From a virus: DNA of 29,441 nucleotides. Both the position numbers and the translations under genes were made by a program. The DNA lies in IMG/VR virus record IMGVR_UViG_3300025154_000322, positions 1 through 29,441 of that record; one strand, written 5' to 3'. Positions 3,783 through 16,700 of the stretch are shown piece by piece; the stretch's first letter is position 1, and each line of letters begins with the position of its first letter. The notes beneath the pieces are model-generated. The model had not been told where the DNA came from. It worked only from the letters and a program-made list of their open reading frames with translations, and searched no databases.

Positions 3783-4979
3783 TTAAGTGAGGCCTGTGAG
3801 CAAACTGTGAGTGCGTCCGATTCCCTCTACAGAAAGTCCAGCCTTACCTGCAAGCAGGTCCTTCTTCTCACGTGGGTTCGTGTTAGTGAACGGCACGAAT
3901 GAGAGTTGGTCGTCTACCTTCCATCCCTTCTCCATGAAGTTTGAGTTCACGAGAGCCACCTTGTCAGTTGGGAAGTCAATGTCAACAACGAAAGGAATTT
4001 GTCCATGTCCATCAGCTTCGTAGAAGTCAAGAATTTGTCCGCCGACCTTGTCTTGACGTGTAGTCACTACAGAGTCAGAACCAGTGAAGCCGTTAGCAAC
4101 TCGCTTCTGTGATACAGAGAGCACGATTGCGTTTACAGTACCACCAGCAGCACGGATTGTGTCTAGTTCATTCTTCAATACGGTTTCTGTGAAAGCTCCA
4201 CTTACTGCAGTCTTTAGTCCACCAGAAACGTCATTGAGGTAACTGATGAGACCACGAGTCATCGCTGGGATGCTTGCAGTTGCAGCACGGGCAGTTCCGT
4301 AGATGGCTGTTCGAGCAAGGTCTTGGAAGACACGTTGCATCGCTTCAGTCTTCAGTGCGGTCTCTGTTCGTCCAGTCTTACGAGCTTGGTCACTGTCTGC
4401 CTTTGAAAGGTCAATTGTTTCTTCAAAGAGTTGGCAGTAGTTGGTGACCTTACCAGTAGTTTCTGCCATTGCTTCTGCGTTGGCAGTTCCTTCAACGTGA
4501 GCAGAACCAATGATTTTCGCAACAGTCGCTGAAGTGTGGGTAGCACCTGAAGTGTCACCAGCACCACGTTCGTACACGTCGATGGTATTACCAGAACGGT
4601 CTACTGCAGATACTACGACAATTTCGTCATCTACGAGCAGAATGTCTCCGACTGTAATACGGTCGATTGTGCCTGAAGTGATTGGAAGGGCACTAGCATC
4701 TGAAGTTGAGTTCCAATCAGTACCTGAACCTACAGTACCAAGTGTTACAGATGGTGCAGTGTAGTTTCGAGTGAGCACATCATACACTTCAGTTGTGAAT
4801 GGTGTCTCACGAGTTGTGAAGAGGTCCCAAACCTTTCCGAACTCTTTTGCTTGAGCTGGGGTGATGCGTTCTGCAACAGCAATCACTTCAGGGTCAAGGA
4901 TAGAGTTTGTGTCGTCGAGGGTGGTGTGAAGTCCTAAGTCCATAATAAATTTAGAGGTTAAAGTCTTTGCTAAAACCAT
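3783..4979 (-). CDS. Major capsid protein (SU10/DUF5309-like, HK97 fold)
   Basis: The 398 residues fit a major capsid protein. The segment around 178-250 (NYCQLFEETIDLSK, then a long helix, then AIYGTARAA and MTRGLISYL) matches the layout of the DUF5309/SU10 capsid family, where a capture-related helix precedes an aromatic hairpin. A Gly/Thr/Ser-rich insertion at about 80-155 contains a VGDILLVDDEIVVVSAV strand pair. It directly follows the scaffold-like gene with a 13 bp gap, the usual order. It is expected to form the procapsid shell with that scaffold, perhaps helped by the phage GroES-like protein. Family assignment is by eye. Confidence 0.8.
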   Translation of the reverse strand: MVLAKTLTSKFIMDLGLHTTLDDTNSILDPEVIAVAERITPAQAKEFGKVWDLFTTRETPFTTEVYDVLTRNYTAPSVTLGTVGSGTDWNSTSDASALPITSGTIDRITVGDILLVDDEIVVVSAVDRSGNTIDVYERGAGDTSGATHTSATVAKIIGSAHVEGTANAEAMAETTGKVTNYCQLFEETIDLSKADSDQARKTGRTETALKTEAMQRVFQDLARTAIYGTARAATASIPAMTRGLISYLNDVSGGLKTAVSGAFTETVLKNELDTIRAAGGTVNAIVLSVSQKRVANGFTGSDSVVTTRQDKVGGQILDFYEADGHGQIPFVVDIDFPTDKVALVNSNFMEKGWKVDDQLSFVPFTNTNPREKKDLLAGKAGLSVEGIGRTHSLLTGLT

Positions 4980-4992
4980 CTAGGTAGTCAGT

Positions 4993-5721
4993 CTATGATT
5001 TCTTTGTTCGCTCTGTTTTGATGAGCTTACCGAGTTCAGCCATGCGGGTGAAGTCAGATGCTTTCTTCCCTTCCTTCTTCTGCAGTGTTTCAAACTCTGC
5101 CTGATACTTCTGCAAGTCAGTAGTATTCGGGTCATCTTCGTTAGGTGGAACGCCACCGCCTTTACCAGTGCCAACTTTGACACCTAGCAGCTTCGCGTTC
5201 TTGGTGATGTACTCAAGTTTCTCACGTGGTGAAAAGCTTTCAGGGATAAGTCCGATATTGTCCTTCGGAATATCCTTTAGCACTTGCTCAAGTACCTGCT
5301 TAACGCTACCGACATACTTTTCAAGTATCTCCCCCTTAGTACCTAGCTCTTTTTTCAACTTATCAATCTCAGCGTCTTTCGACTTGATGACTTCTTCGTG
5401 CTTACCAGCAGCTAGGTCGGCGTCTTGTTTTGCTTTCGCATCAGCCGCTTCTCTGTCTGCCTTTTCCTGCAGCAATTTCTTGACTTCAGGATTTAGGTTG
5501 GCAATCTCTTCAGTTGTCATCTTCGATAGGTCTGGCGCATCGTCCTTCTTCGGTGGTACTGGTGCTACGTACTCAACCTTCTTGCCGTCTACTTCTTTGG
5601 CCTTGGTCTTGTCAGTATCATCAGGGATATACTTCTTGCCATCAATTTCGACAAACTGTACATCGTCCTCTTTACCGTTGAACTTGTGAACTACTACTTT
5701 CGTTTCAATTTTGTGAAGCAT
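4993..5721 (-). CDS. Scaffolding-like protein, 242 aa
   Basis: A highly charged Lys/Glu/Asp/Ala-rich protein. Residues about 70-150 form a predicted long coiled coil (ADREAADAKAKQDADLAAG, then KSKDAEIDKLKKELG), and a KLIKTERTKKS basic tail closes it. A basic tail after a helical region is typical of phage scaffolds that bind the capsid protein through the C-terminus. It lies immediately upstream of the major capsid gene. No SD site precedes the ATG, and a leader of about 95 nt with a hairpin (5750-5780) lies in front of it. Confidence 0.7.
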   Translation of the reverse strand: MLHKIETKVVVHKFNGKEDDVQFVEIDGKKYIPDDTDKTKAKEVDGKKVEYVAPVPPKKDDAPDLSKMTTEEIANLNPEVKKLLQEKADREAADAKAKQDADLAAGKHEEVIKSKDAEIDKLKKELGTKGEILEKYVGSVKQVLEQVLKDIPKDNIGLIPESFSPREKLEYITKNAKLLGVKVGTGKGGGVPPNEDDPNTTDLQKYQAEFETLQKKEGKKASDFTRMAELGKLIKTERTKKS

Positions 5722-5822: not shown

Positions 5823-5828
5823 ATTATA
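5823..5828 (-). promoter_or_regulatory. Putative -10 box (TATAAT) for the scaffold/capsid operon
   Basis: A perfect TATAAT on the minus strand lies about 100 bp upstream of the scaffold start and just after the tmRNA 3' end. No good TTGACA lies 16-18 bp upstream; the best is TGCCAA. A promoter here would uncouple capsid expression from the tmRNA. Confidence 0.4.
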
Positions 5829-5872
5829 CACAATGTTTGCCTTCTTTGGCAGTCCCTGTGCACAACTTGAGT

Positions 5873-6241
5873 TAGTGGAAGTGAGCGGAATTGAACCGCC
5901 GTACCACACTTGGATTGAAAAACGTCTACGAGACCTATCTGCTTGTGAAGCAGCAACTTTGATATGACTATCGCATCCCCGCCCCACTTTTTTTGACAGT
6001 GAGAGCAGTGGGCATCTCCACCAACACCTGTGTATGACAACACTGCAGATACTAGGTGTATCTTTCCGCGTGTTGGACGTTAGGCTGGTACTAGACCTGC
6101 GTGAACGTCTTGCGCTGTAGCAAAGTACGGCGACTTCATTGATGCGCGTGCACGTATCGGGTGTACCACTTTTAAGAATGTAGTACGGTTTCTGTCTCGC
6201 AGTTTTTCAATGAACAAATGTGGGCGAAGCCTGGCACTCCC
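5873..6241 (-). ncRNA. ssrA: Transfer-messenger RNA (tmRNA), phage-encoded
   Basis: The 5' end GGGAGTG (6241-6235) pairs with CACTTCC (5883-5877) in a 7-bp acceptor stem whose third pair is G-U, the alanyl-tRNA synthetase identity element, with discriminator A at 5876. The T-arm GGCGG-TTCAATT-CCGCT is at 5900-5884. The 5' segment AGGCTTCGCC matches the tmRNA D-loop pattern GGxTTCGAC. Helix P2 is long: 6223-6215 pairs with 5912-5904, 6211-6202 with 5923-5914 (10 perfect pairs) and 6199-6194 with 5934-5929. A 7-bp stem (6186-6180 with 6169-6163) fits PK1. The tag frame runs from GCA at 6151 to TAA at 6080-6082, in a hairpin closed by GACGTT/AACGTC. The 3' end reads ACTA, so CCA is not encoded. 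In cells tmRNA with SmpB releases stalled ribosomes and tags the nascent chain. Confidence 0.92.
6080..6151 (-). CDS. tmRNA tag-peptide reading frame, 23 codons
   Basis: Resume codon GCA at 6151-6149 follows TACGT, which keeps the T(-5) and A(-4) seen before known resume codons. The frame encodes 23 residues starting ARASMK and ending HAGLVPA, then TAA. The next frame hits a stop after four codons and the third stays open far past the hairpin, so this is the only sensible frame. The end differs from the usual hydrophobic-Ala-Ala. Confidence 0.65.
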   Translation of the reverse strand, partial: ARASMKSPYFATAQDVHAGLVPA

Positions 6242-6315: not shown

Positions 6316-6321
6316 ATTATA
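6316..6321 (-). promoter_or_regulatory. Putative -10 box (TATAAT) for the tmRNA
   Basis: A perfect TATAAT lies between the terminator hairpin (6330-6361) and the tmRNA 5' end (6241). The only -35-like hexamer is TTGTGC with a 15-bp spacer, inside the terminator stem. It would give a 5' leader of about 65 nt, to be removed by processing. Confidence 0.45.
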
Positions 6322-6329
6322 TCAAATAA

Positions 6330-6361
6330 AAAAGCTGCACAATAGTAGTTGTGCAGCTTTT
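6330..6361. terminator. Intrinsic terminator, 13-bp perfect stem
   Basis: AAAAGCTGCACAA and TTGTGCAGCTTTT form a perfect 13-bp stem with a 6-nt loop, and the T run continues on the minus strand. It ends 10 bp downstream of the secreted-protein gene and closes the three-gene cassette. It also insulates the tmRNA. Confidence 0.85.
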
Positions 6362-6371
6362 GCCTGGATAT

Positions 6372-6683
6372 TCAAATGGTGAGTTCAGGGTGCGTCCAGC
6401 GAACACGATGTGCCCCTTCTTTCATCTCGACAACCTGGTACAGCACGCCTTCGTTATCGAAGAGCAGCATCCAGTAGGTGTTGGCCGCTTCGTCATAGCC
6501 GACCATGCAGAGCACTTGACCTTTTGGTGTAGGACAAATGCCTTGGTGGATGGTCACGGCGTTGATGGCTTCTTGAGCCAGGGAGTCAGGTGTCGGAGTT
6601 GGTGTGAGCGCCCAGGCTTTGGCAATCCAGCCAATGAGGGCCAGCACCAGAGCAAACTTGATGTAGAACATGAGGTTTTTCAT
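6372..6683 (-). CDS. Putative secreted or periplasmic protein, 103 aa
   Basis: The N-terminus MKNLMFYIKFALVLALIGW is a clear signal peptide with probable cleavage after AKAWA (about residue 25), followed by a Thr-Pro stretch and a roughly 75-residue domain with two cysteines (CPTPKGQVLC) that could form a disulfide. The start is supported by a strong SD, GGGAG 7 nt before the ATG. It overlaps the stop of the preceding gene by ATGA and is followed by the terminator at 6330-6361. It looks more GC-rich than its neighbours. Such exported proteins on phages can act in exclusion or envelope change, but no family was recognised. Confidence 0.65.
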   Translation of the reverse strand: MKNLMFYIKFALVLALIGWIAKAWALTPTPTPDSLAQEAINAVTIHQGICPTPKGQVLCMVGYDEAANTYWMLLFDNEGVLYQVVEMKEGAHRVRWTHPELTI

Positions 6684-6877
6684 GACGTACTCCCAGAAGA
6701 AGTTTCCCTGACGTACCGAAGCACGAAAGGTGGAACGATAGCGTGCAGCTTGAACTGCGCGACATCGGTAGAGACATTGGCATCGCTGCCAAAACAGTAG
6801 ATATGGGCCAGGCGGAAGAATGTTTGCTCGTCCACCTTCGACCGTGTCATGGCCTCAACCACTTCTTGCGTTTGCAT
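6680..6877 (-). CDS. Hypothetical protein, 65 aa, SD-led cassette
   Basis: The start at 6877 was chosen because GAGGAG lies 7 nt upstream; the open frame continues further upstream, but without a comparable signal. The protein starts MQTQEVVEAMTRSKVDEQ and is a small mixed helix/strand protein without clear motifs. The start lies inside the end of the upstream zinc-finger gene (23 bp overlap) and its TGA overlaps the next ATG. The three genes therefore form one translationally coupled unit. The function is unknown. Confidence 0.6.
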   Translation of the reverse strand: MQTQEVVEAMTRSKVDEQTFFRLAHIYCFGSDANVSTDVAQFKLHAIVPPFVLRYVRETSSGSTS

Positions 6878-7046
6878 CGTAGCTCTCCTCACATTTTTTG
6901 CTACATGAGCCTGAGTCACCATGACGGCCATAGTAACCCTCGCAGTTCCGCTGACAAACGCAGCAGGTAGGTTGCTTAATCCAAGCAGCCAAGTCGTCCT
7001 CTCTTTTCTTTTGCTGAGCCTCATGAAGCTTAAAGCTTTGTTTCAT
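6855..7046 (-). CDS. Cys-rich zinc-finger-like protein, 63 aa
   Basis: The start at 7046 is preceded by GGAGG about 7 nt upstream, one of the strongest SD sites in the window. The N-terminal half is helical and charged (EAQQKKREDDLAAWIKQ). The C-terminal half has CCVCxxxC, a His, and CSKKC, which could bind one or two zinc ions. It is the first gene of the three-gene cassette that ends at the terminator at 6330-6361. No family was recognised; small zinc proteins of this type are often regulators or inhibitors. Confidence 0.6.
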   Translation of the reverse strand: MKQSFKLHEAQQKKREDDLAAWIKQPTCCVCQRNCEGYYGRHGDSGSCSKKCEESYDANARSG

Positions 7047-7189: not shown

Positions 7190-7606
7190 TTACTTATTCA
7201 GAGCGCGGTAGCCTTTAATGGCGATACGAGCGATGCGCTCAGTCTCTTGTTCTCGTAGTCGCTGCAGGTGAGTATTTTCTTGTGGTGAGGCGTTATCAAT
7301 GGCCGACTGATACATCGGTTCGGTGATGATGTGGCACAACTCATGCATCAAGGTTTCCTCTAGCTCCTCTTCAGTGCACTTACATGCTGGGTCGAAGGCT
7401 TGAATGGTTGCTCTCAGGTAATTGATTTGAACTGTGCATACCATTGTGGTACTTCTCTCACTGTTGAGAAACAGACCATCAACTATGCAGGTGGTAATCT
7501 CCCACTCTGCTAGATTTAAAAAGTCGCGCATCTTCCTTGTGTGTGTATCAAAGAGCTTCTTAATGGGCAACTGCTTCGGTGTGAATTTTGAGTTTTTCTT
7601 TGTCAT
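7190..7606 (-). CDS. HExxH zinc metallopeptidase-like protein, 138 aa
   Basis: The motif HELCH (residues 88-92) in the context LEETLMHELCHIITEP is a classic HExxH zinc-binding helix, and a later ETERIARIA helix could supply a third Glu ligand. The preceding strand pair (TTMVCTVQINYLRATIQ) is the edge-strand arrangement seen in short SprT-like and other phage zincin proteins. The gene stands alone, 84 bp after a TTGACA-containing region and about 140 bp before the next cassette, within the accessory block that splits the head genes. No signal peptide is visible, so it should act in the cytoplasm. The substrate is unknown. Confidence 0.75.
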   Translation of the reverse strand: MTKKNSKFTPKQLPIKKLFDTHTRKMRDFLNLAEWEITTCIVDGLFLNSERSTTMVCTVQINYLRATIQAFDPACKCTEEELEETLMHELCHIITEPMYQSAIDNASPQENTHLQRLREQETERIARIAIKGYRALNK

Positions 7607-7674: not shown

Positions 7675-7839
7675 ATGTCTGTATCAAATAATCAGTTGGA
7701 ACTGTGGCGCAAAGAGCTGGGTGATGTTCAGTTCGAGCGTCAACTTAGTCTTGGTATGTTCGATGTACCAGATGACGTTGGGAGTGTGATTGAAGCGACC
7801 CTGGCTGAAGCAACAAACGTACCTATCGACTACTATTAG
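7675..7839 (+). CDS. Small acidic protein on the opposite strand, 54 aa (putative)
   Basis: This is the only plausible plus-strand gene. It begins MSVSNNQLELWRKELGD, continues with an acidic helix-rich sequence (MFDVPDDVG, then VIEATLAEA) and ends in DYY. It fills a gap of about 230 bp that has no minus-strand frame, and its TAG interlocks with the TAA of the convergent minor head gene (7836-7839). That tight fit favours a real gene. No SD site is visible. The length is short and no family was recognised, so this remains tentative. Confidence 0.5.
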   Translation: MSVSNNQLELWRKELGDVQFERQLSLGMFDVPDDVGSVIEATLAEATNVPIDYY

Positions 7840-8699
7840 CTCAAGTCTGGTCTAGGTAGTAGAGAGTGCTTGCAGTTCGGGTGGTAAGGCGGTAAGTCCT
7901 CGGGTTGTGCCCTTGGGTAGTTTTTACTTTTACCCGACATCGAGTATATCTCTCCCTCTTGCGGCATACAGAGGTCGTCTGTTGCGCCGTGGGTTGATAC
8001 CTGAACAATATCAATGTCGTACTCTTTCATGCGAAGCAGAGTAGCTTCGTTGTTGGCTTTGATGAGGTGAGTACGGGTGACCATCTCACTGTAGCGTTCT
8101 AGTGTCCATTGGCGGCCGCCTCTATCCAGTAGAGCGCGAAGTCCATTTTTTTGAATAATGCTGACTACATCCTTTTTGATAATCCTGGCCGCCTCACCTG
8201 CGAGTCTGCCTTCAGCAATCCTCGACTGTATCTGCTGACGCATGACATCAGACAGAACACGCTCATTGCCTCTCACCCACCCAGTCATGCCGCCAGCGAT
8301 GTCACCGTAGGCATCACCAATCAATAGATTCACTACCTGAAGGTGTGGTGCGAAGTCTTCAACAGTGCGAAGGATATCGACGGTAAGTACTCCGCTCTTC
8401 AGTTTGATATCAAATGTCTTTAGTATCTCGTCAGTGTAATTGAACCCTGCGATGTAGGCGCCAGCCATTGCTGGTGACAGCCACGCCTTGACCTGTGCAT
8501 CAGCTTCAGCAACAGCTCCCTTAATTTCGACCATCACAGCTCTCTTACGGGCCTCTAGCAACTCTATGCTGGTTGCAGCCTCAATACTGTTCTGACCCTT
8601 TTCTTCTAGCTCACCGAGGATGGTGCGTAGTTCAGAGACCTCTTTGTCGAGAAGTCTACCAAGTTCTTCTTCACGCTTCTTTTGGTCTTTAGGGTTCAT
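7836..8699 (-). CDS. Minor head protein, Mu gpF-like, 287 aa
   Basis: The start at 8699 gives an ATGA overlap with the upstream membrane-protein gene; upstream in-frame Met codons would read through that gene. Residues 1-70 are coiled-coil-like (KREEELGRLLDKEVSEL). The C-terminal signature of phage minor head proteins is clear: RTHLIKANNEATLLRMKEY, then DDLCMPQEG (Cys about 244) and PPYHPNCKH (His 273, Cys 276, His 278) near the end. Proteins of this family are made after the portal and sit inside or near the portal vertex. Here it follows the portal by two small genes, as usual. Confidence 0.8.
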   Translation of the reverse strand: MNPKDQKKREEELGRLLDKEVSELRTILGELEEKGQNSIEAATSIELLEARKRAVMVEIKGAVAEADAQVKAWLSPAMAGAYIAGFNYTDEILKTFDIKLKSGVLTVDILRTVEDFAPHLQVVNLLIGDAYGDIAGGMTGWVRGNERVLSDVMRQQIQSRIAEGRLAGEAARIIKKDVVSIIQKNGLRALLDRGGRQWTLERYSEMVTRTHLIKANNEATLLRMKEYDIDIVQVSTHGATDDLCMPQEGEIYSMSGKSKNYPRAQPEDLPPYHPNCKHSLLPRPDLS

Positions 8700-8893
8700 A
8701 TAATTTTTAGGGCTAACTTCACTACTACGATGAGAGCGAAAACAGAAACGAGCAGCATGGTAAATGCTGCTGCGTAGACGGTGGCGAACCATCGCCAATC
8801 CACTCGTTTCATCTTGTCTTCAAGCAAGGCGACATTCTCGCCAAAGCCTTCATTGATGTCTTGGTGCACTTTGTTGCCAGTTGGGAAACGCAT
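8696..8893 (-). CDS. Small membrane protein with N-terminal helix, 65 aa
   Basis: An amphipathic N-terminal segment with a coiled-coil look (EGFGENVALLEDKMKRVDW) leads into one strong transmembrane helix at about residues 38-62, with a short Lys-containing tail. This layout resembles small XhlA-like or holin-accessory proteins, but these are normally near lysis genes, whereas this one lies between portal-side genes. Its stop overlaps the next start by ATGA. The function is unresolved. Confidence 0.6.
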   Translation of the reverse strand: MRFPTGNKVHQDINEGFGENVALLEDKMKRVDWRWFATVYAAAFTMLLVSVFALIVVVKLALKII

Positions 8894-9218: not shown

Positions 9219-10625
9219 CTAAAGGGTCGGTGCACTACCTACTGAGCCTAGACCCGCGATGGCATCCTCATTCTTGATGCGGGCCAGCTCTTCGTCGGCC
9301 GCTTCGTCATCAATGTTTTCAATTCGCTTGAGTGATGAATGGCGTGAACTGATACCTGATGTGATTTTCTGTGCCTCTACGTTGACTTGTACTTGTTCGT
9401 CTACTGGCAAAGCATCAGAGAACTTGATGATGCAGTCATTCTTCTGCAGCTCTTCTGAAGAAGAAGTCATCTTGGCCCCGATACGAAGCATGTCGAGTAC
9501 TCCGCGTCGTAGCTTCGCTCGCTTCTTCGATGTCTTACGCATAGCAGGGAAGAGTTGGATGCGAAGAGACTCTACACTCTGCGGCGCTGCAGTACGTGTT
9601 AACGCCCACATTGGTATACCTGTCATGAACTCAATGAACTTCATCATTGAGAGGATGTGCTCGCGTGCATCATTAAGCAAGGGATTGGTGTTGATGATGT
9701 ACTGCGGCATTGGGTCTTCTTTGCTCTCAAGTATAAATGCCTCACTGTGTTTGACTTTAGTGCTGCCCTCTTCTTCATCCTCTTCAAGTGAAGATGCAGG
9801 TATTGCCAGCTTGGCGTCCATGTTCTTCAGGAACTGGGTTGCTACCTGTGTGCTACGCTCATTGATTTCAGCGAGTTGAGGCACGATGTCTGCGTAGTCA
9901 CTCTTGCCGTAGCCTTCTTTACTGCGGCGGCCGTTGTCAATTTGACGTACAGGTATCTCATCAATATCAAGGGTTTCACTTTCTACCAGGGTGCGGCCGA
10001 CAAGTGCACTCATTGCCTCAAGTGGATATGCTTCGATGACTACACCTGTCTGGTTACATCGCCAAGCTTGGTGCTCGATGAATACATTACCGTTTCCTTT
10101 CTGGTAGTGCTGTGTGTGGGCTAGTAGTTTCTTACTTGTCGGATTGGCTGGGTCCTTTCGGTAAGTAATAAAAACAACAGAGCCGTCACTCTGTGGGAAG
10201 TATTGGTCTGCAGGTACCGACATCATGTGGTACTGGTTCTCATCGTCCTTGTAGCCGAGCAGTACTACGAAGCCGAACTCACTCTGGTCTTCAGCAAAGT
10301 CGCTCATGCGCTCTTTGAGGTCGTTCTCATAGACAACACCCTCTACCCACGCTTGGTCATCCTCTGAAGCGCCTGCAGGGGCTTGTATGACCAGACGCTC
10401 GACATCACCTAGCACAAAATCACCGTAGACTTCGGTGATTCTTGCAGGGATGCCGTGAGCTAGATATACCAGGTCGGCCAGGTTCTTGTACTGCTTCTTG
10501 ATGAGTTCGTGCAGTTTGAGAATAGACAGTTGCTCACTGGTGTCGTAGAGCTTGTGATACTGCTTGAGAGCGTTCACTCGCTGAATCTCTTTGCTAGATG
10601 GAAACTCGTTGATTTTGACGGACAT
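9219..10625 (-). CDS. Portal protein (SPP1 gp6-like), 468 aa
   Basis: The portal forms the dodecameric ring through which DNA enters the head. Length and segment order fit the SPP1-type family: an N-terminal helical part with LADLVYLAHGIPARI, a central SEFGFVVLLGYKDD and MSVPADQYFPQSDG region, then a long helical stem around KFIEFMTGIPMWALTRTAAP and SVESLRIQLFPAMRK. The C-terminus is acidic (IDDEAADEELARIKNED). It follows the large terminase by two short genes and precedes the minor head gene, the usual packaging-module order. The start at 10625 has an A/T-rich leader without an SD site. Confidence 0.85.
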   Translation of the reverse strand: MSVKINEFPSSKEIQRVNALKQYHKLYDTSEQLSILKLHELIKKQYKNLADLVYLAHGIPARITEVYGDFVLGDVERLVIQAPAGASEDDQAWVEGVVYENDLKERMSDFAEDQSEFGFVVLLGYKDDENQYHMMSVPADQYFPQSDGSVVFITYRKDPANPTSKKLLAHTQHYQKGNGNVFIEHQAWRCNQTGVVIEAYPLEAMSALVGRTLVESETLDIDEIPVRQIDNGRRSKEGYGKSDYADIVPQLAEINERSTQVATQFLKNMDAKLAIPASSLEEDEEEGSTKVKHSEAFILESKEDPMPQYIINTNPLLNDAREHILSMMKFIEFMTGIPMWALTRTAAPQSVESLRIQLFPAMRKTSKKRAKLRRGVLDMLRIGAKMTSSSEELQKNDCIIKFSDALPVDEQVQVNVEAQKITSGISSRHSSLKRIENIDDEAADEELARIKNEDAIAGLGSVGSAPTL

Positions 10626-11266: not shown

Positions 11267-12718
11267 TTATATTCTATCAGGTCGCTCAACATTTTTGAAT
11301 GTACGACGCTTGAGCATCCCCATAATGAGGTACACAAGCGCATCTACGAGGTCGTCGTGTTCTTCAGAGCCAAAGCCCAGCAATTGCTGCAGCAGCTCTT
11401 CACAGCCGAACTCAGGGAACAATACGGTGCCGTCAATGATGAATGGTGAGATGGTCTCAAGTCGGGCCTTCTTGTCACTGATTGCTCGCATCGGATATAC
11501 CGCCAAGCCCTTTCGCTTCATCGTCTGTAGTGCAGCCTTTTGAAAACCAACGTCTTCTACGAACCACTTAGTGCCTACTGGCATGGTGTCATTGAGACGG
11601 ATAGCTTCCTTCATTGAGTCATCGAAGCCAACACGCTTGTTGACTGGATTTGGTCGAATGAAGATATGGTCTTTGTCATCGAGTGTGATGCGATACCCTG
11701 CGACCATTGCGGTACAGTCGGCACTCTGCTTCTCACTGATGGCAAGGTCTTCACCAACACCTGCATCTTTGGGCTTCCACTTCAGTTTGCCATCTTCGTC
11801 TCGCTCATCGAGCATCTTGTTAGGGTAGAAGTGTATATCTTCTTCCTTCACTGGTTGGTCTTCTTCAGCAACGATTTTGAGAAGGTACTCGCGCGCCCAC
11901 GTGATGTGTGAACGCACCTTTGCTTTCTGTTTGTCGATAGCTGCTTGGTTTGGGTACTTCCCTGCCCATTCAATTACCCCAGTCTTCTTGTTGATGAGAG
12001 GGAACTCAAGGGTAGTGAAGAGTAGGGAACCGTCTGGCTTCTTTGATTTGCGTACTCGCATCATCAGCGCATCTTTGTGCAGTAGGTTTCCAATGAGTAC
12101 GAGCTTGCTCTTGTCCTCTTGCTGCGCTGGGATGACTTCGTTGTTGAACCAGCTCTCAGTCTTATCGCGGTTCTCTTTCTTCTTCACCCACACAAGGTCC
12201 TCAACGTCGTCACAGAGTACCACTTGTGGTCGGTACTGGCGGTGTCGAAGTCCGCGCATCTTCTGCCCCCGTGAACGTCCCATGATGAGACACCCATTGG
12301 CAAGCATGAGCTTTTCTGAAGACCAGTTGCGAGCTTTATCGAAAGTGATGCCGTAATCTTGCTGCAGCCACTTGTTCTCTTCCAACTCATACCGCAAGTT
12401 TGCGATGGTGAGCTTTGTCTGTGTGGTGGTATCACCTACAGGGATGATGAACTTTGCTTTGCCTTCAAGGCCAAGATACAAAGGTGCGCCGATTGTGGCG
12501 TATGTACTCTTTGCACCACCTCGGTGTCCAATGATTTCAACCAACTCTTCGCTAGGGTCCTCAAGTACGTGAGAAAGAACGTAGTGGTAGTCAGCAGGCT
12601 CTACTGTGAAGTAGTGGCGAAGGTACACCATACACCAGCCGAGTAGACCACCTTGTTTGACGATGTACTTGCGTACTGCAGGGTCTTCAAGATTGATTCC
12701 TTCACTGATGTATTTCAT
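11267..12718 (-). CDS. terL: Terminase large subunit
   Basis: This is the ATP-driven DNA-packaging motor and nuclease. The ATPase domain has Walker A GHRGGAKST (residues 64-72) and Walker B VVLCDDVED (166-174) with catalytic acid nearby. The C-terminal RNase H-like nuclease domain is marked by DLAISEKQSADCTAMVAG (about 324-341), FVEDVG (386-391) and the final HDDLVDALVYL (454-464), which supply the acidic metal ligands. Its 483 residues match the usual family length. Its ATG overlaps the small-terminase stop (ATGA), indicating translational coupling. Confidence 0.92.
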   Translation of the reverse strand: MKYISEGINLEDPAVRKYIVKQGGLLGWCMVYLRHYFTVEPADYHYVLSHVLEDPSEELVEIIGHRGGAKSTYATIGAPLYLGLEGKAKFIIPVGDTTTQTKLTIANLRYELEENKWLQQDYGITFDKARNWSSEKLMLANGCLIMGRSRGQKMRGLRHRQYRPQVVLCDDVEDLVWVKKKENRDKTESWFNNEVIPAQQEDKSKLVLIGNLLHKDALMMRVRKSKKPDGSLLFTTLEFPLINKKTGVIEWAGKYPNQAAIDKQKAKVRSHITWAREYLLKIVAEEDQPVKEEDIHFYPNKMLDERDEDGKLKWKPKDAGVGEDLAISEKQSADCTAMVAGYRITLDDKDHIFIRPNPVNKRVGFDDSMKEAIRLNDTMPVGTKWFVEDVGFQKAALQTMKRKGLAVYPMRAISDKKARLETISPFIIDGTVLFPEFGCEELLQQLLGFGSEEHDDLVDALVYLIMGMLKRRTFKNVERPDRI

Positions 12719-13437
12719 ACGTCGCTTTCTACTACGACATAGTCAACCTTAGACGCCAGGGCTTTACGCTCAAACAGTGCAAACACTTTATCGACTGCCT
12801 CTTTCGCTTCAGGCGAGACTTCTACTGTCTCAGTCATATTGGCGTTGAGTTCAATCTTTGGTGAGAACTCTTGTTTGTTCTTCACTGCAGCGTACTTGAG
12901 AGCGTTGTCGAAGTTACTCATTGCCCCTGTCACCAGTACCTGTCTGATGAGTGTCATTGGTATATGGCGTAGTATGGCAACCGTATTACTAAATTCAGGG
13001 TACTTCTTGATGAAGCGGTAATATGTTACTGGATTGATACCAGCTAAAATACATGCTTCTTCTACAGTAGAGTCAAATGCAAAAGCGTACTCTAATTTTG
13101 AAAGAGTACGGTCGTCAATCTCTGCTGGCCGACCTGCCCCTTTGGGGTTGCTCTTTGTCTTCTTCTTCTCTGGTGGAATCTCAAAGTGAAACACCTCGCA
13201 GGCTTGTGCGATGAGCACAGCTTCTCTTCTGTGTGTCAAAGGACTGAAGACAACATCGTCTACCATCTTATCGACAGCACGACCTTCACTCACTGCTATG
13301 GCAGCAACAGGGGCAGCTACGGGCTTACTCTTGCGAGTAGCTTTTGTTTTCTTCTTTTTGACCTTGTCGATACCCTTCTGGATATTAATGAGTTTTTTTG
13401 AAGTTCTTTTTTTTGTAGGTGCTTTTCTTGAAGCCAT
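12715..13437 (-). CDS. terS: Terminase small subunit with Lys-rich N-terminal tail
   Basis: The protein directly precedes the large terminase. Residues about 105-150 form an HTH unit (STVEEACILAGINPVTYYRFIKKYPEF) typical of small terminases that recognise the packaging site. An oligomerisation helix and an acidic C-terminal region follow. The first 50 residues are unusually basic (RKAPTKKRTSKK, then KVKKKKTKATRKSKP), like a histone H1 tail, and probably bind DNA without sequence preference. The 85 bp in front of the start hold no convincing gene or SD site. Confidence 0.8.
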   Translation of the reverse strand: MASRKAPTKKRTSKKLINIQKGIDKVKKKKTKATRKSKPVAAPVAAIAVSEGRAVDKMVDDVVFSPLTHRREAVLIAQACEVFHFEIPPEKKKTKSNPKGAGRPAEIDDRTLSKLEYAFAFDSTVEEACILAGINPVTYYRFIKKYPEFSNTVAILRHIPMTLIRQVLVTGAMSNFDNALKYAAVKNKQEFSPKIELNANMTETVEVSPEAKEAVDKVFALFERKALASKVDYVVVESDV

Positions 13438-13522
13438 AGTGTGTGGTGTTTGTCATACAGACGCTCGGCCATTGCATCGAAGTGCGGCGGCCATTTTCAT
13501 CAAGCTAGGTGAATGGTCTCTA

Positions 13523-13825
13523 CTATGCGGTTTCCTTCTGTTGGTAGTCAAAGTGGTTGCGAGGTATGCGAGGTGCGTCAATCTTGACGTACACTCTCTT
13601 CTCAATTTGCTTGAACGCGATGAGTCCGATGACTTTGCGTATAGCCTCTGCAGTTGTGCCCTTTTGACCGATACACATACCGACATCTTCTTTGTGAAGC
13701 TTGACGTTGATGATAACAAGTTCGCCCTGTTCGTCAGCGTCGGCTGTTGTATGTAGCTCTACTGCTTCAGGATGGTCAACAAAACCCTGTACCAGTTCGA
13801 GCAATATCTTTTCTAGTCTGTCCAT
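13523..13825 (-). CDS. KhpA-like KH-domain RNA-binding protein
   Basis: The 100 residues match the bacterial KhpA/YlqC layout: an N-terminal helix (ILLELVQGFVDHPEAVEL), a beta strand (LVIINVKLHKEDVG), the GxxG loop of the KH fold (G53-QK-G56 in CIGQKGTTAEAIRKVI) and a final strand (RVYVKIDAP). KhpA binds RNA, often with a partner KH/R3H protein, and affects small RNAs and cell growth. A short unrelated tail (NHFDYQQKETA) follows. It sits just upstream of the terminase genes. A TATAAT box lies about 75 bp upstream. Phage copies of this protein are not something I know to be common. Confidence 0.85.
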   Translation of the reverse strand: MDRLEKILLELVQGFVDHPEAVELHTTADADEQGELVIINVKLHKEDVGMCIGQKGTTAEAIRKVIGLIAFKQIEKRVYVKIDAPRIPRNHFDYQQKETA

Positions 13826-13896
13826 GCTGTAATTTTTTTATTATTAAACAGCGTGGTGCTTTGTTTGATTGCAGAGACTTACGCCTCTATACCAGT

Positions 13897-13902
13897 ATTA
13901 TA
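13897..13902 (-). promoter_or_regulatory. Putative -10 box (TATAAT) before the KH/terminase operon
   Basis: A perfect TATAAT lies in the 91-bp gap before the KH gene, one of the larger gaps in an otherwise packed operon. The -35 side is poor (TTCTTT at 17 bp). It could start late transcription of the packaging and head genes. Confidence 0.4.
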
Positions 13903-13916
13903 GCACCCCGTCTACG

Positions 13917-14189
13917 TTAAAGAATGTCAGTCTGTGCAGACTGTGCAATTTCCTTCTTCGCCTTGAGATGCCCAGCAGTGTGGTTCTGGCAGAAGTCGGC
14001 AATCTCCCGAAGGCAGTGATGGTCGCACCAACTGTCAGCCTGAAAGTAACAGACGTATTTTCGCCAACCGCCATACCACTTGATGATGGCGAAGGGTACT
14101 CCACCTTTATCGAGCACGTACCACCGACGAGTCTTTGCTCCCCTCTGGTTTGGCAGCTCTTTGAAGGTGATGTATGTGTCCTTGCCCAT
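13917..14189 (-). CDS. Hypothetical protein with His/Cys cluster, 90 aa
   Basis: The N-terminal half is beta-rich with several Trp and Tyr residues (RRWYVLDKGGVPFAIIKWYGG). The centre has WCDHHCLREIADFCQNH, which could form a metal site with Cys and His ligands. It lies 2 bp after the stop of the HTH gene and is the last gene before a 91-bp gap with a TATAAT box. No family was recognised. Confidence 0.55.
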   Translation of the reverse strand: MGKDTYITFKELPNQRGAKTRRWYVLDKGGVPFAIIKWYGGWRKYVCYFQADSWCDHHCLREIADFCQNHTAGHLKAKKEIAQSAQTDIL

Positions 14190-14191
14190 GT

Positions 14192-14764
14192 CTAGATTTT
14201 ATACTTCTCGTATAACGACTTTAGGTGAGCGAACGGCACTGCAGGAAACGCTAGTTCCATTTCTGAAAAAGATAATCCTTGGCCCACCATGTCTCTGACC
14301 CGCTCTTCAATTGTCGGAGTCGATGCTGGTGGCCTGTTAGCTCTGTCTTGAGCTTTCTGACCATAGCTCGTGAGTCCTGGCGTCTTCGGCTCTTGTAGTG
14401 GTTCGTCTATCTCACCAGTCTCAGTATTGAGTCTATGTCTTTGGCTGTAGACCGTCTGCACAGTGACATCGTATTTGGTTGCTATCTCAGCGGGTGTGAG
14501 TTCGTCGGCTTTGATATCTTCAATCATTGCTTCTTTGTCGTACTTAGTTCGGCGCTGCTTGTTTTCGGCTGGGATATTTGAGACGGGCGTCTTTGGTTTT
14601 TTCTCTTCCTCTTCCTCAACTTCAACCTCTACTTCTTGGTAGATGACTGCTGGGTCAGCAATGAGCATGTCAATCACTTGCTCGGCCGTCACTTCTTTTT
14701 CTAGGATTTCATCTACCTCACCATCGTCACCGTGTTTGAATACACTGATTGTAAATTTTGCCAT
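14192..14764 (-). CDS. Helix-turn-helix protein with acidic linker, 190 aa
   Basis: An N-terminal domain of about 45 residues is followed by an acidic stretch (EVEVEVEEEEEKKPK). A recognisable HTH follows at about residues 72-110 (KEAMIEDIKADELTPAEIA, then KYDVTVQTVYSQRHRLN), as in small transcription factors and transposase-type HTHs. A Pro-rich linker leads to a second helical unit (TIEERVRDMVGQGLSFSEMEL) that looks like another HTH. It may regulate the late genes that begin two genes downstream (inference). Confidence 0.6.
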   Translation of the reverse strand: MAKFTISVFKHGDDGEVDEILEKEVTAEQVIDMLIADPAVIYQEVEVEVEEEEEKKPKTPVSNIPAENKQRRTKYDKEAMIEDIKADELTPAEIATKYDVTVQTVYSQRHRLNTETGEIDEPLQEPKTPGLTSYGQKAQDRANRPPASTPTIEERVRDMVGQGLSFSEMELAFPAVPFAHLKSLYEKYKI

Positions 14765-14765
14765 T

Positions 14766-15026
14766 TTATATTTTTAACTTTTCAAGTGCGTGGGTGATTT
14801 CATATGACGCATACTCATTAAGTGTCTGTGACATAAACATTTTCAAATTTTCTTTTTGAGATGACGGGACAATAGAGGTGACGAGGCATCTCTCTCGCAC
14901 TTTGTTGTTTACGGTTTGTGTTTGACGTAAGACAGAGTAGTGGCACTGTCCAGTCTCTGGATTTTTCCAATAGATTAATCTATAAGTTGAGTTACCCAAT
15001 TCGATTGTGATTTGCTGCTGGTACAT
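14766..15026 (-). CDS. Hypothetical protein, 86 aa
   Basis: A small protein with an N-terminal beta hairpin (QITIELGNSTYRLIYWKN) and a C-terminal helix (LNEYASYEITHALEKLKI). It lies 12 bp after the metallophosphoesterase stop and 1 bp before the HTH gene. No SD site and no known motif are visible. Confidence 0.5.
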   Translation of the reverse strand: MYQQQITIELGNSTYRLIYWKNPETGQCHYSVLRQTQTVNNKVRERCLVTSIVPSSQKENLKMFMSQTLNEYASYEITHALEKLKI

Positions 15027-15038
15027 AATTTATATTAT

Positions 15039-15635
15039 TTATCGTGGTTTATATTCTTTGCCTGGCTCTAGTGGCTTGGTCATATCTGCACGTCGCTCAA
15101 GTGTGTTCATTACCTCATCAAGACTGATGGGTCGGTAGCCTCTGATGTCTGGCGCAGCATCGTAGTGATAGGAAAGTTGGTAACCCACAGCTTCAGCTTC
15201 GTCTCGCCTGTGGTCGTTATCAATCATCGTGAGTATTCTACGCTCACCGTCACCATGAAGGTGGCCGTGTACGTTGGCATAGAGCCCAGGCAGTACGCCT
15301 ACTGGTGCATGAGTAAACAAAATCATCTTCTTTCGTACCCGCATAACTATCTCTTCGCAGACAAAGTCCCAACCGTGTGAGAGGTACCATGAGTATGATT
15401 TGTTGTCGTGGTTGCCTCTGACCAGTATCTTCTTGCAGCGTAGATTTTTGATTAGCGCATGTACTCTTTCATCGGCACCGATACAGATGTCACCCAAGTG
15501 TATGAGGGTGTCGCCTTCGTCTAGGAGAGCTATTGAGTCCCAAAGTCTTTGCTCATAGTCATCTGGCCGACCAGCGCCCATCTCTTTGATGCGCTCATGA
15601 TTAAAGTGGGTGTCTGTGATGATGTAAGTTTTCAT
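15039..15635 (-). CDS. Calcineurin-like metallophosphoesterase, 198 aa
   Basis: All five metal-site motifs are present: DTHF (residues 8-11), GD (48-49), GNHD (74-77), TH (108-109) and HGHLH (123-127). A two-metal phosphoesterase acting on phosphodiesters or nucleotides is therefore expected, and its length fits the single-domain YfcE-like group. The substrate cannot be read from sequence. It begins with an ATGA overlap to the preceding 56-residue gene and belongs to the same operon as the GroES-like gene. Confidence 0.88.
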   Translation of the reverse strand: MKTYIITDTHFNHERIKEMGAGRPDDYEQRLWDSIALLDEGDTLIHLGDICIGADERVHALIKNLRCKKILVRGNHDNKSYSWYLSHGWDFVCEEIVMRVRKKMILFTHAPVGVLPGLYANVHGHLHGDGERRILTMIDNDHRRDEAEAVGYQLSYHYDAAPDIRGYRPISLDEVMNTLERRADMTKPLEPGKEYKPR

Positions 15636-15802
15636 ATACGGTCTGCAAATGGTGAGTCTGCAAAATCTTCTGTGACCTTGCCTCTTCCCATGTTATTAAG
15701 TTCAAAGTCTCGTTCTGCTTGAGAGAGTGCAGTTGTTTTTCGATACTTTTTTTCTTCAGGTGGTTTATAGAGTGGCACGTAGTCGTCGTCGAGTAGTCCC
15801 AT
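15632..15802 (-). CDS. Small hypothetical protein, 56 aa
   Basis: This short frame (MGLLDDDYVPLYKPPEEKK at the N-terminus, FADSPFADRI at the end) exactly fills the space between the GroES-like and phosphoesterase genes: 2 bp after one stop and overlapping the next start by ATGA. It is charged, Pro-containing and probably unfolded in part. Position is the main support. The function is unknown. Confidence 0.6.
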   Translation of the reverse strand: MGLLDDDYVPLYKPPEEKKYRKTTALSQAERDFELNNMGRGKVTEDFADSPFADRI

Positions 15803-15804
15803 AT

Positions 15805-16077
15805 CTATTTTTTAGTAGCAATGACCTCTGCAAACTTCACAAAGTATAGTTCGTCCTCACCATCTTTAAAGGTGAGCATCGAGAAATCTTGAAAGAAAAC
15901 TGTGTCGCCTACTACTACGTGCATACCTTCAGTATGCGGGTCTGTTGCAATGACCTCGGCACTTGTAGGGCGCTGCTTCTTCTTTGAAGCATCTGGAATA
16001 TAAATACCTGATGCGGTCGTCTCTTCTTCCTTCTCAGGTTGTTTAACCTGAATATAGCCGTTGAGTGGAAATATCAT
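15805..16077 (-). CDS. GroES-like co-chaperonin, 90 aa
   Basis: The start at 16077 overlaps the TM2 gene stop by ATGA; the longer upstream frame is a shadow of that gene. The sequence follows GroES: an opening strand (FPLNGYIQVKQPEK), a mobile loop (EEETTASGIYIPDASKKKQ, residues 17-35) with the Gly-Ile-x-x-Pro core that docks on GroEL, then SAEVIATDP, VVVGDTVFF and a final strand (LYFVKFAEVIA). It lacks the long roof hairpin of phage T4 gp31-like proteins. A phage co-chaperonin would cap host GroEL and help fold the capsid protein, as known for T4 gp31. Confidence 0.88.
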   Translation of the reverse strand: MIFPLNGYIQVKQPEKEEETTASGIYIPDASKKKQRPTSAEVIATDPHTEGMHVVVGDTVFFQDFSMLTFKDGEDELYFVKFAEVIATKK

Positions 16078-16307
16078 TTGGTGTGAGTTAAGTCGTAGTG
16101 CAGGTTGTACTTCGCATTGAATCTTTCTTTTGAAGTGAAGACCATGACCCAGAACTCGATTGTAGCAATAAAAGCTGGGATAAGTGTCCAGCAAAAGAGT
16201 GCGTACATGGTGCCTGCTACTGTGTTGCCTAGATAAAATTTGTGGCCACCTACCCATCCTAGAAAGAGGGTGAGTATAAGTGCGGTTGTTTTACTTTTTC
16301 GGTTCAT
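16074..16307 (-). CDS. TM2-domain membrane protein, 77 aa
   Basis: A short basic N-terminus (MNRKSKTTA) is followed by two hydrophobic helices, LILTLFLGWVGGHKFYLG and TMYALFCWTLIPAFIATIEF, with the Gly-Gly-His-x-F-Tyr-Leu-Gly turn diagnostic of the TM2 family. A basic cytoplasmic tail (ERFNAKYNLHYDLTHTK) closes it. TM2 proteins are small membrane proteins of unclear function. The gene starts after a 93-bp gap with two hairpins, so it may head a separate transcript with the co-chaperonin. Confidence 0.8.
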   Translation of the reverse strand: MNRKSKTTALILTLFLGWVGGHKFYLGNTVAGTMYALFCWTLIPAFIATIEFWVMVFTSKERFNAKYNLHYDLTHTK

Positions 16308-16335
16308 TTTAAGTGTGCTTATATTTACAATTTTT

Positions 16336-16389
16336 GAGCAATCTATGCGTGCTCATCACTATGGCCGTTGTTTGATAACAGCCATAGTG
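16336..16389. other. Two adjacent hairpins in a gap of the operon
   Basis: GAGCA/TGCTC (16336-16354) and CACTATGGC/GCCATAGTG (16357-16389, a 9-bp perfect stem) lie side by side in the gap between the 99-residue protein and TM2 genes. Neither is followed by a long T run on the minus strand, so a simple terminator is not supported. An attenuator or RNA-processing site is possible. Confidence 0.5.
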
Positions 16390-16400
16390 TGAGAAAACAA

Positions 16401-16700
16401 TTAGTCAGCTACAGTCTCTTCAAACGACTCATCCTCATCCTCTGCCAACTTAACTTCTGTGAAGTCTACGTAGAACTGTTGGCCGACACTGAACTTGCCG
16501 TGAAGCGCAGGGTTTGCAATCAAAATCTCGAACGTGGCTGAAGGCGAGAAGTGTGCATACGTGTTGTTCTCATCACTACCATCTTCTGGGTAGGTATCTT
16601 CGCGTGAAACTGCACGCATCTTTAATGCTTCAGAGTCACCATTTGCTTCTACTGACTCAACGACGAGCTTTGCTCGCATTGTTACTTCTTCTGTATTCAT
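16401..16700 (-). CDS. Conserved phage hypothetical protein, 99 aa
   Basis: The core MRAKLVVESVEANGD, then NTYAHFSPSATFEILIANPAL, then FSVGQQFYVDFTEVKLAEDED resembles a widespread small phage protein of unknown function (from memory of its typical sequence). The family usually starts at the Met of MRAKL (16679); the 16700 start adds seven residues. It is a beta-rich acidic protein and the last gene before the hairpin gap. Confidence 0.6.
   Translation of the reverse strand: MNTEEVTMRAKLVVESVEANGDSEALKMRAVSREDTYPEDGSDENNTYAHFSPSATFEILIANPALHGKFSVGQQFYVDFTEVKLAEDEDESFEETVAD

Follow-up and report, generated by a model that had tools for sequence, protein, structure and literature searches.

The locus analysed here raises the question of why a tailed phage would carry a complete tmRNA (ssrA) gene among its head genes, and whether this gene works for the phage or is a relic of a host. 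The window, i.e., the whole stretch of DNA that was analysed, corresponds to an IMG/VR virus record 29,441 bases long that lacks end repeats, and is a fragment of the genome of an uncultured tailed phage. Phage tmRNAs as such are established: a survey of 2021 counted 402 among 18,146 genomes (PMC9004378), and further cases are Stenotrophomonas phage Marzo (PMC8928761) and phages of Bradyrhizobium elkanii (PMC12656738). Like these, the window tmRNA is a complete gene on a phage genome, presumably dependent on host SmpB.

The tmRNA gene and its setting

The initial annotation, made from the letters alone, had proposed a complete tmRNA gene inside a phage structural operon and suggested the Rfam model and ARAGORN as checks. 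Both were positive. ARAGORN called one tmRNA in the window (5875-6241, minus strand), and RF00023 matched 5873-6241 on the same strand over model positions 1-374 of 374, with 61.9 bits compared to a curated cut-off of 47 bits, and with an E-value, computed for the whole window, of 4.2e-22. The permuted (two-piece) tmRNA model scored only 20 bits at this site; thus, the gene is of the one-piece type. We note that the score is modest, 62 bits versus up to 172 bits in Patescibacteria genomes.

The elements that had been named in support of the call, i.e., an acceptor stem with G3-U70, a T arm, UUCG in the D region, a long P2 and a tag frame, were all found (Table 1; RNA position n equals 6242 minus the window position). 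All seven pairs of the acceptor stem are standard, the third being the G-U pair that confers alanine identity; the T stem has 5 bp and the loop TTCAATT. When the 5' and 3' ends were joined and folded without constraints, the 7-bp acceptor stem and the T arm formed along with a P2 of 26 pairs; together, these make up the tRNA-Ala-like domain characteristic of tmRNAs. CCA is absent from the gene and the RNA 3' end reads ACUA; therefore, CCA must come from a host enzyme. PK1 lies upstream of the resume codon, with two crossed stems, and the outer stem of PK2 (CAACAC/GUGUUG) is present; the PK3-PK4 region is aligned to RF00023 at low confidence. A short tag frame, as is typical of tmRNAs, runs from GCA to UAA. 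The gene thus resembles the one-piece tmRNA of RF00023 in its full model length, tRNA-like domain, P2, PK1, UAA-ended tag and AlaRS identity pair, and differs in its divergence, the lack of encoded CCA, the 23-codon tag and the location in a phage head operon.

The late genes around the tmRNA (terminase, portal, minor head and major capsid) are all on the minus strand; to the initial annotation we can add that the tmRNA is on this strand as well, so that the head operon reads in the same direction. Lying among viral genes on a viral genome, the gene is phage-encoded. Its proposed placement between the minor head and scaffold genes holds on one side, where a scaffold-like gene without Pfam or PHROG matches is directly downstream, whereas the minor-head gene is separated from the tmRNA by three ORFs and a terminator-like hairpin. 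This hairpin is weak evidence (one found versus 1.3 expected in shuffles), and the counts of promoter-like and terminator-like sites in the window are no better than in shuffled sequence.

Two further observations concern other genes of the window. A KhpA/KhpB-type KH RNA-binding protein (13523-13825, minus strand, PF13083) is encoded directly before the terminase genes; many relatives have its gene in this position too, and the protein had no match among annotated phages. A GroES-like co-chaperonin ORF (PF00166, 15805-16257) overlaps a TM2-domain ORF (PF05154, 16074-16307), both on the minus strand; the listed ORF probably begins ahead of the true start of the GroES-like gene.

Table 1. Features of the window, and the tmRNA genes of two related records
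Feature	Position	Strand	Evidence or remark
Small terminase	12715-13437	minus	
Large terminase	11267-12718	minus	
Portal	9219-10625	minus	
Minor head protein	7836-8744	minus	PF06152, 68 bits (longer ORF to 8798); phrog_4611, 135 bits
SprT-like ORF	7190-7606	minus	weak SprT-like / phage metallo-protease match
Two ORFs without assigned family, minor-head side of the tmRNA	6680-7024, 6372-6683	minus	
Terminator-like hairpin with T tail	6330-6361	minus	between ORF 6372-6683 and the tmRNA
TATAAT after the hairpin	6316-6321	minus	without a good -35
tmRNA (ssrA), one-piece, full length	5873-6241	minus	RF00023, 61.9 bits; ARAGORN
Acceptor stem P1, 5' strand GGGAGUG	6235-6241	minus	pairs with CACUUCC; holds G3 of G3-U70
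PK1: AGAA/UUCU crossed with GUACUAC/GUGGUAC	6163-6193	minus	RNA positions 49-79
Tag frame, 23 codons and UAA, ARASMKSPYFATAQDVHAGLVPA	6080-6151	minus	ARAGORN; RNA positions 91-162
11-mer GUUGGUGGAGA, PK3 region	6015-6025	minus	exact in the window, L014 and L068 tmRNAs
T arm GGCGG-UUCAAUU-CCGCU	5884-5900	minus	Rfam alignment, free fold
Acceptor stem, 3' strand CACUUCC	5877-5883	minus	Rfam alignment; followed by ACUA (5873-5876)
Promoter-like site CTGCCA-18-TATAAT	5823-5852	minus	between the tmRNA and the scaffold gene
Scaffold-like protein, downstream of the tmRNA	4993-5721	minus	position and conservation before the major capsid gene (relatives)
Major capsid protein, SU10 type	3783-4979	minus	PF17236, 104 bits
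L014 tmRNA (on L014)	8376-8772		RF00023, 57.8 bits
L068 tmRNA (on L068)	13217-13595		RF00023, 66.2 bits

Relatives and the minor-head/scaffold slot

When IMG/VR was scanned with TerL or portal as single proteins, no relatives were returned, and alignments were needed; those of the capsid, portal, minor-head and terminase proteins yielded approximately 100 related records. Two of these have a tmRNA above the RF00023 cut-off, L014 (IMGVR_UViG_3300022707_000552) and L068 (IMGVR_UViG_3300030397_000159), in both cases in the minor-head/scaffold slot. Their portals are 43-44% identical to that of the window (L068, 43%). The gap between the end of the minor-head gene and the tmRNA is approximately 12-14 bases in the two records; L014, with a gap of approximately 12 bases, differs from the window also in that a tRNA-Ile follows the tmRNA. 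Both tmRNAs share with that of the window the slot, the lack of encoded CCA, a tag of exactly 23 codons followed by UAA, and the 11-mer in the PK3 region.

We compared 20 minor-head/scaffold junctions, those of the window and 19 relatives (two of them nearly identical), and found a tmRNA in three; 17 relatives have none, and most of the remaining junctions are 110-190 bases long. RF00023 produced no match above the cut-off, and two weak sub-threshold matches, in the records of 83 further relatives, many of which are fragments. A search of IMG/VR with a tmRNA-specific DNA pattern found L068 again and nothing else; the window tmRNA DNA had no match, near or distant, in 50,697 annotated phage records, and the window portal had no match among annotated phages. 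Because the nearest relative, L058, and most of the others lack a tmRNA, the gene is dispensable to this phage group.

Other cargo is found in the same slot. In L062, the slot (12674-16626) is occupied not by a tmRNA but by a large fibre-like ORF together with a XerC-like tyrosine recombinase, and in L007 it holds an HNH-like ORF, as judged by eye. From its gene content, the minor-head/scaffold junction is a site of accessory-gene uptake in these phages, and this variety of cargo weakens the case for capsid timing as the reason for the placement of the tmRNA. A tRNA-Gly(CCC) gene is located upstream of the terminase genes in L002 (1569-1640), the slot of which has no tmRNA.

The initial annotation knew of no phage tmRNA in such a gene setting. 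The two relatives with the same slot show that the window is not alone in this respect; however, in a partial search of the literature we recognised no published case of a phage tmRNA next to the genes for scaffold or capsid. The tmRNA of OM43 phage Melnitz (PMC9004378) is a permuted two-piece gene adjoining a transcription coactivator, in contrast to the one-piece gene in the minor-head/scaffold slot described here. That of Marzo (PMC8928761) belongs to a cluster of tRNA genes and is similar to the ssrA of the host, whereas for the window tmRNA no close host match was found.

As for the host, one of the few clues for this phage group comes from a related phage, L017 (JARGGI010000015.1): its 25-kb contig is binned in a Patescibacteria MAG that has its own smpB and tmRNA on another contig. 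Among 380 Patescibacteria genomes, only this MAG and one weak match were recovered. Since binning errors are possible, Patescibacteria are a weak lead and not a host assignment. A tmRNA above the cut-off was found in 129 of 145 Patescibacteria; if these are the hosts, the phage copy would supplement the function and not supply it. No SmpB gene was found on the phage records, which fits the use of host SmpB.

Selection and descent of the phage tmRNAs

Across the window, L014 and L068, acceptor pairs 4-5 are changed on both sides with the pairing kept, while G3-U70 is constant. The PK1 stems likewise differ on both sides with the pairing kept: at matching positions, L068 has UGAA/UUCA and GUCACGC/GUGUGAC, and L014 has CGAC/GUCG and GCCCC/GGGGC. 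The tmRNA of the window shares 69% identity with that of L068 across 353 aligned bases, with z of approximately 17 above shuffles; by comparison, the portals of these two phages are only 43% identical. We used as bacterial comparison set 30 Patescibacteria tmRNAs, MAG G007 and the E. coli ssrA; the best match in this set had z of approximately 7 for the window, against 31 bacterial tmRNAs, and 10 for L068. A comparison with phage and bacterial tmRNAs, along the lines recommended in the initial annotation, placed the window tmRNA closest to that of a phage relative and not to any bacterial tmRNA sampled. A host tmRNA as the source was rejected, none in the set being close. The compensatory changes and the phage nearest match point to a long-selected phage gene, as opposed to a recent host capture or an att-site scar.

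In a tree built from the concatenated portal, minor head, scaffold and capsid proteins, the three carriers fall in three clades, each with a tmRNA-less sister, and L014 is nearer to the window than L068 is. Given the discrepancy between the phage tree (L014 nearer) and the tmRNA likeness (L068 nearer), along with the shared 11-mer, we infer an old phage tmRNA lineage with a history of frequent loss, of transfer between phages, or of both. The common descent of the L014 tmRNA with the other two is indicated solely by the 11-mer and the slot. That the window and L068 acquired their tmRNAs independently from hosts is not supported by these comparisons.

The gene might instead be a functionless passenger, a host ssrA captured by imprecise excision of a temperate ancestor that had integrated there. 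It is well established that ssrA is a common integration site (discussed in PMC9004378), and the XerC-like integrase in the same slot of L062 leaves room for an ancient integrase-linked origin of the tmRNA. However, tyrosine integrases and resolvases (PF00589, PF00239) gave no hit in the window, which is a fragment record, or in the L014 and L068 records. The window gene is complete, unlike the partial ssrA 3' end beside an integrase that an att remnant would leave, its best bacterial z is below that to L068, and its structure has been maintained through compensatory change. With no integrase found in the window and no close match among the bacterial tmRNAs sampled, the gene is not an att-site scar, in agreement with the initial annotation. 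We consider the passenger explanation improbable, and capture as a recent event is unlikely.

Less probable still is an altered purpose, in which the tag would be non-degradative, or the RNA would compete with the host tmRNA for SmpB and ribosomes, giving the phage control over stalled chains. Phage and bacterial tmRNAs have diverged, and the phage tags have different ends: VPA (window), VLA and AVV. The L014 and L068 tags (ANAFLIACDEAVEGVKTPELVLA and AKQSIVSPFYPTKASLDRDFAVV) differ from that of the window, and a pattern S-x-x-S-P-aromatic-aromatic-x-T, noticed by eye, is common to the window and L068. In addition, the 11-mer is unique to the three phage tmRNAs, its core (TTGGTGGAG/TGGTGGAGA) being absent from the bacterial comparison set, and its sequence is the complement of UCUCCACCA, with which mature tmRNAs usually end at 3'. 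Conversely, tags of Patescibacteria vary widely, with ends that include AVV (MAG G007), AVA and ALA, so that the phage ends are within the bacterial range, and the 11-mer is explicable as, and may merely be, a PK3 strand. Finally, a chance cluster of hairpins, despite the lack of an ARAGORN call on the L068 copy, is refuted by the covariance-model match across the full model (E of 4e-22) and is contradicted by the same-slot copies with compensatory changes.

Proposed function

The reading that we prefer, with a probability of approximately 0.8, is that the window encodes a working, phage-owned tmRNA, which a group of uncultured tailed phages carries as an accessory gene in the variable minor-head/scaffold slot. 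Most likely, and in line with one of the roles raised in the initial annotation, it would feed ribosome rescue by way of host SmpB while the late genes are being expressed. The following steps can be envisaged: (i) the tmRNA would be transcribed along with the late head genes or close to them, and trimmed, and the host CCA-adding enzyme would complete its 3' end; (ii) host AlaRS would charge it, and host SmpB would load it onto ribosomes stalled on broken mRNA; (iii) alanine and the 23-residue tag would be added, the ribosome would be released, and the tagged failed chain would be marked for host proteases. Their degradation is not assured, however, as the window tag ends in VPA and not in the common AA. 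Under high mRNA breakage and heavy capsid synthesis, the phage would benefit from the added capacity for rescue. In some systems, host tmRNA is needed by or useful to phages, as for the lambda-P22 hybrids cited in PMC12656738, and this precedent makes a supply role reasonable. For the earlier proposal that the phage tmRNA replaces a host tmRNA disabled by the phage, we have no evidence.

We give little credence to a more far-reaching version, in which a phage group, possibly on Patescibacteria, would maintain its own tmRNA lineage in a fixed head-operon slot, either tuned to late capsid expression or changing trans-translation in the host by means of its own tag and a conserved element complementary to the tmRNA 3' end.

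What this analysis adds, on comparative sequence evidence for selection, is a diverged one-piece phage tmRNA that recurs in a head-operon slot. Three diverged carriers in one slot, together with many tmRNA-less relatives, form a comparative set, and with the compensatory changes this set makes it easier to ask how a ribosome-rescue RNA of its own benefits a phage. The three phage tags are ready material for the question of which degrons are tolerated.
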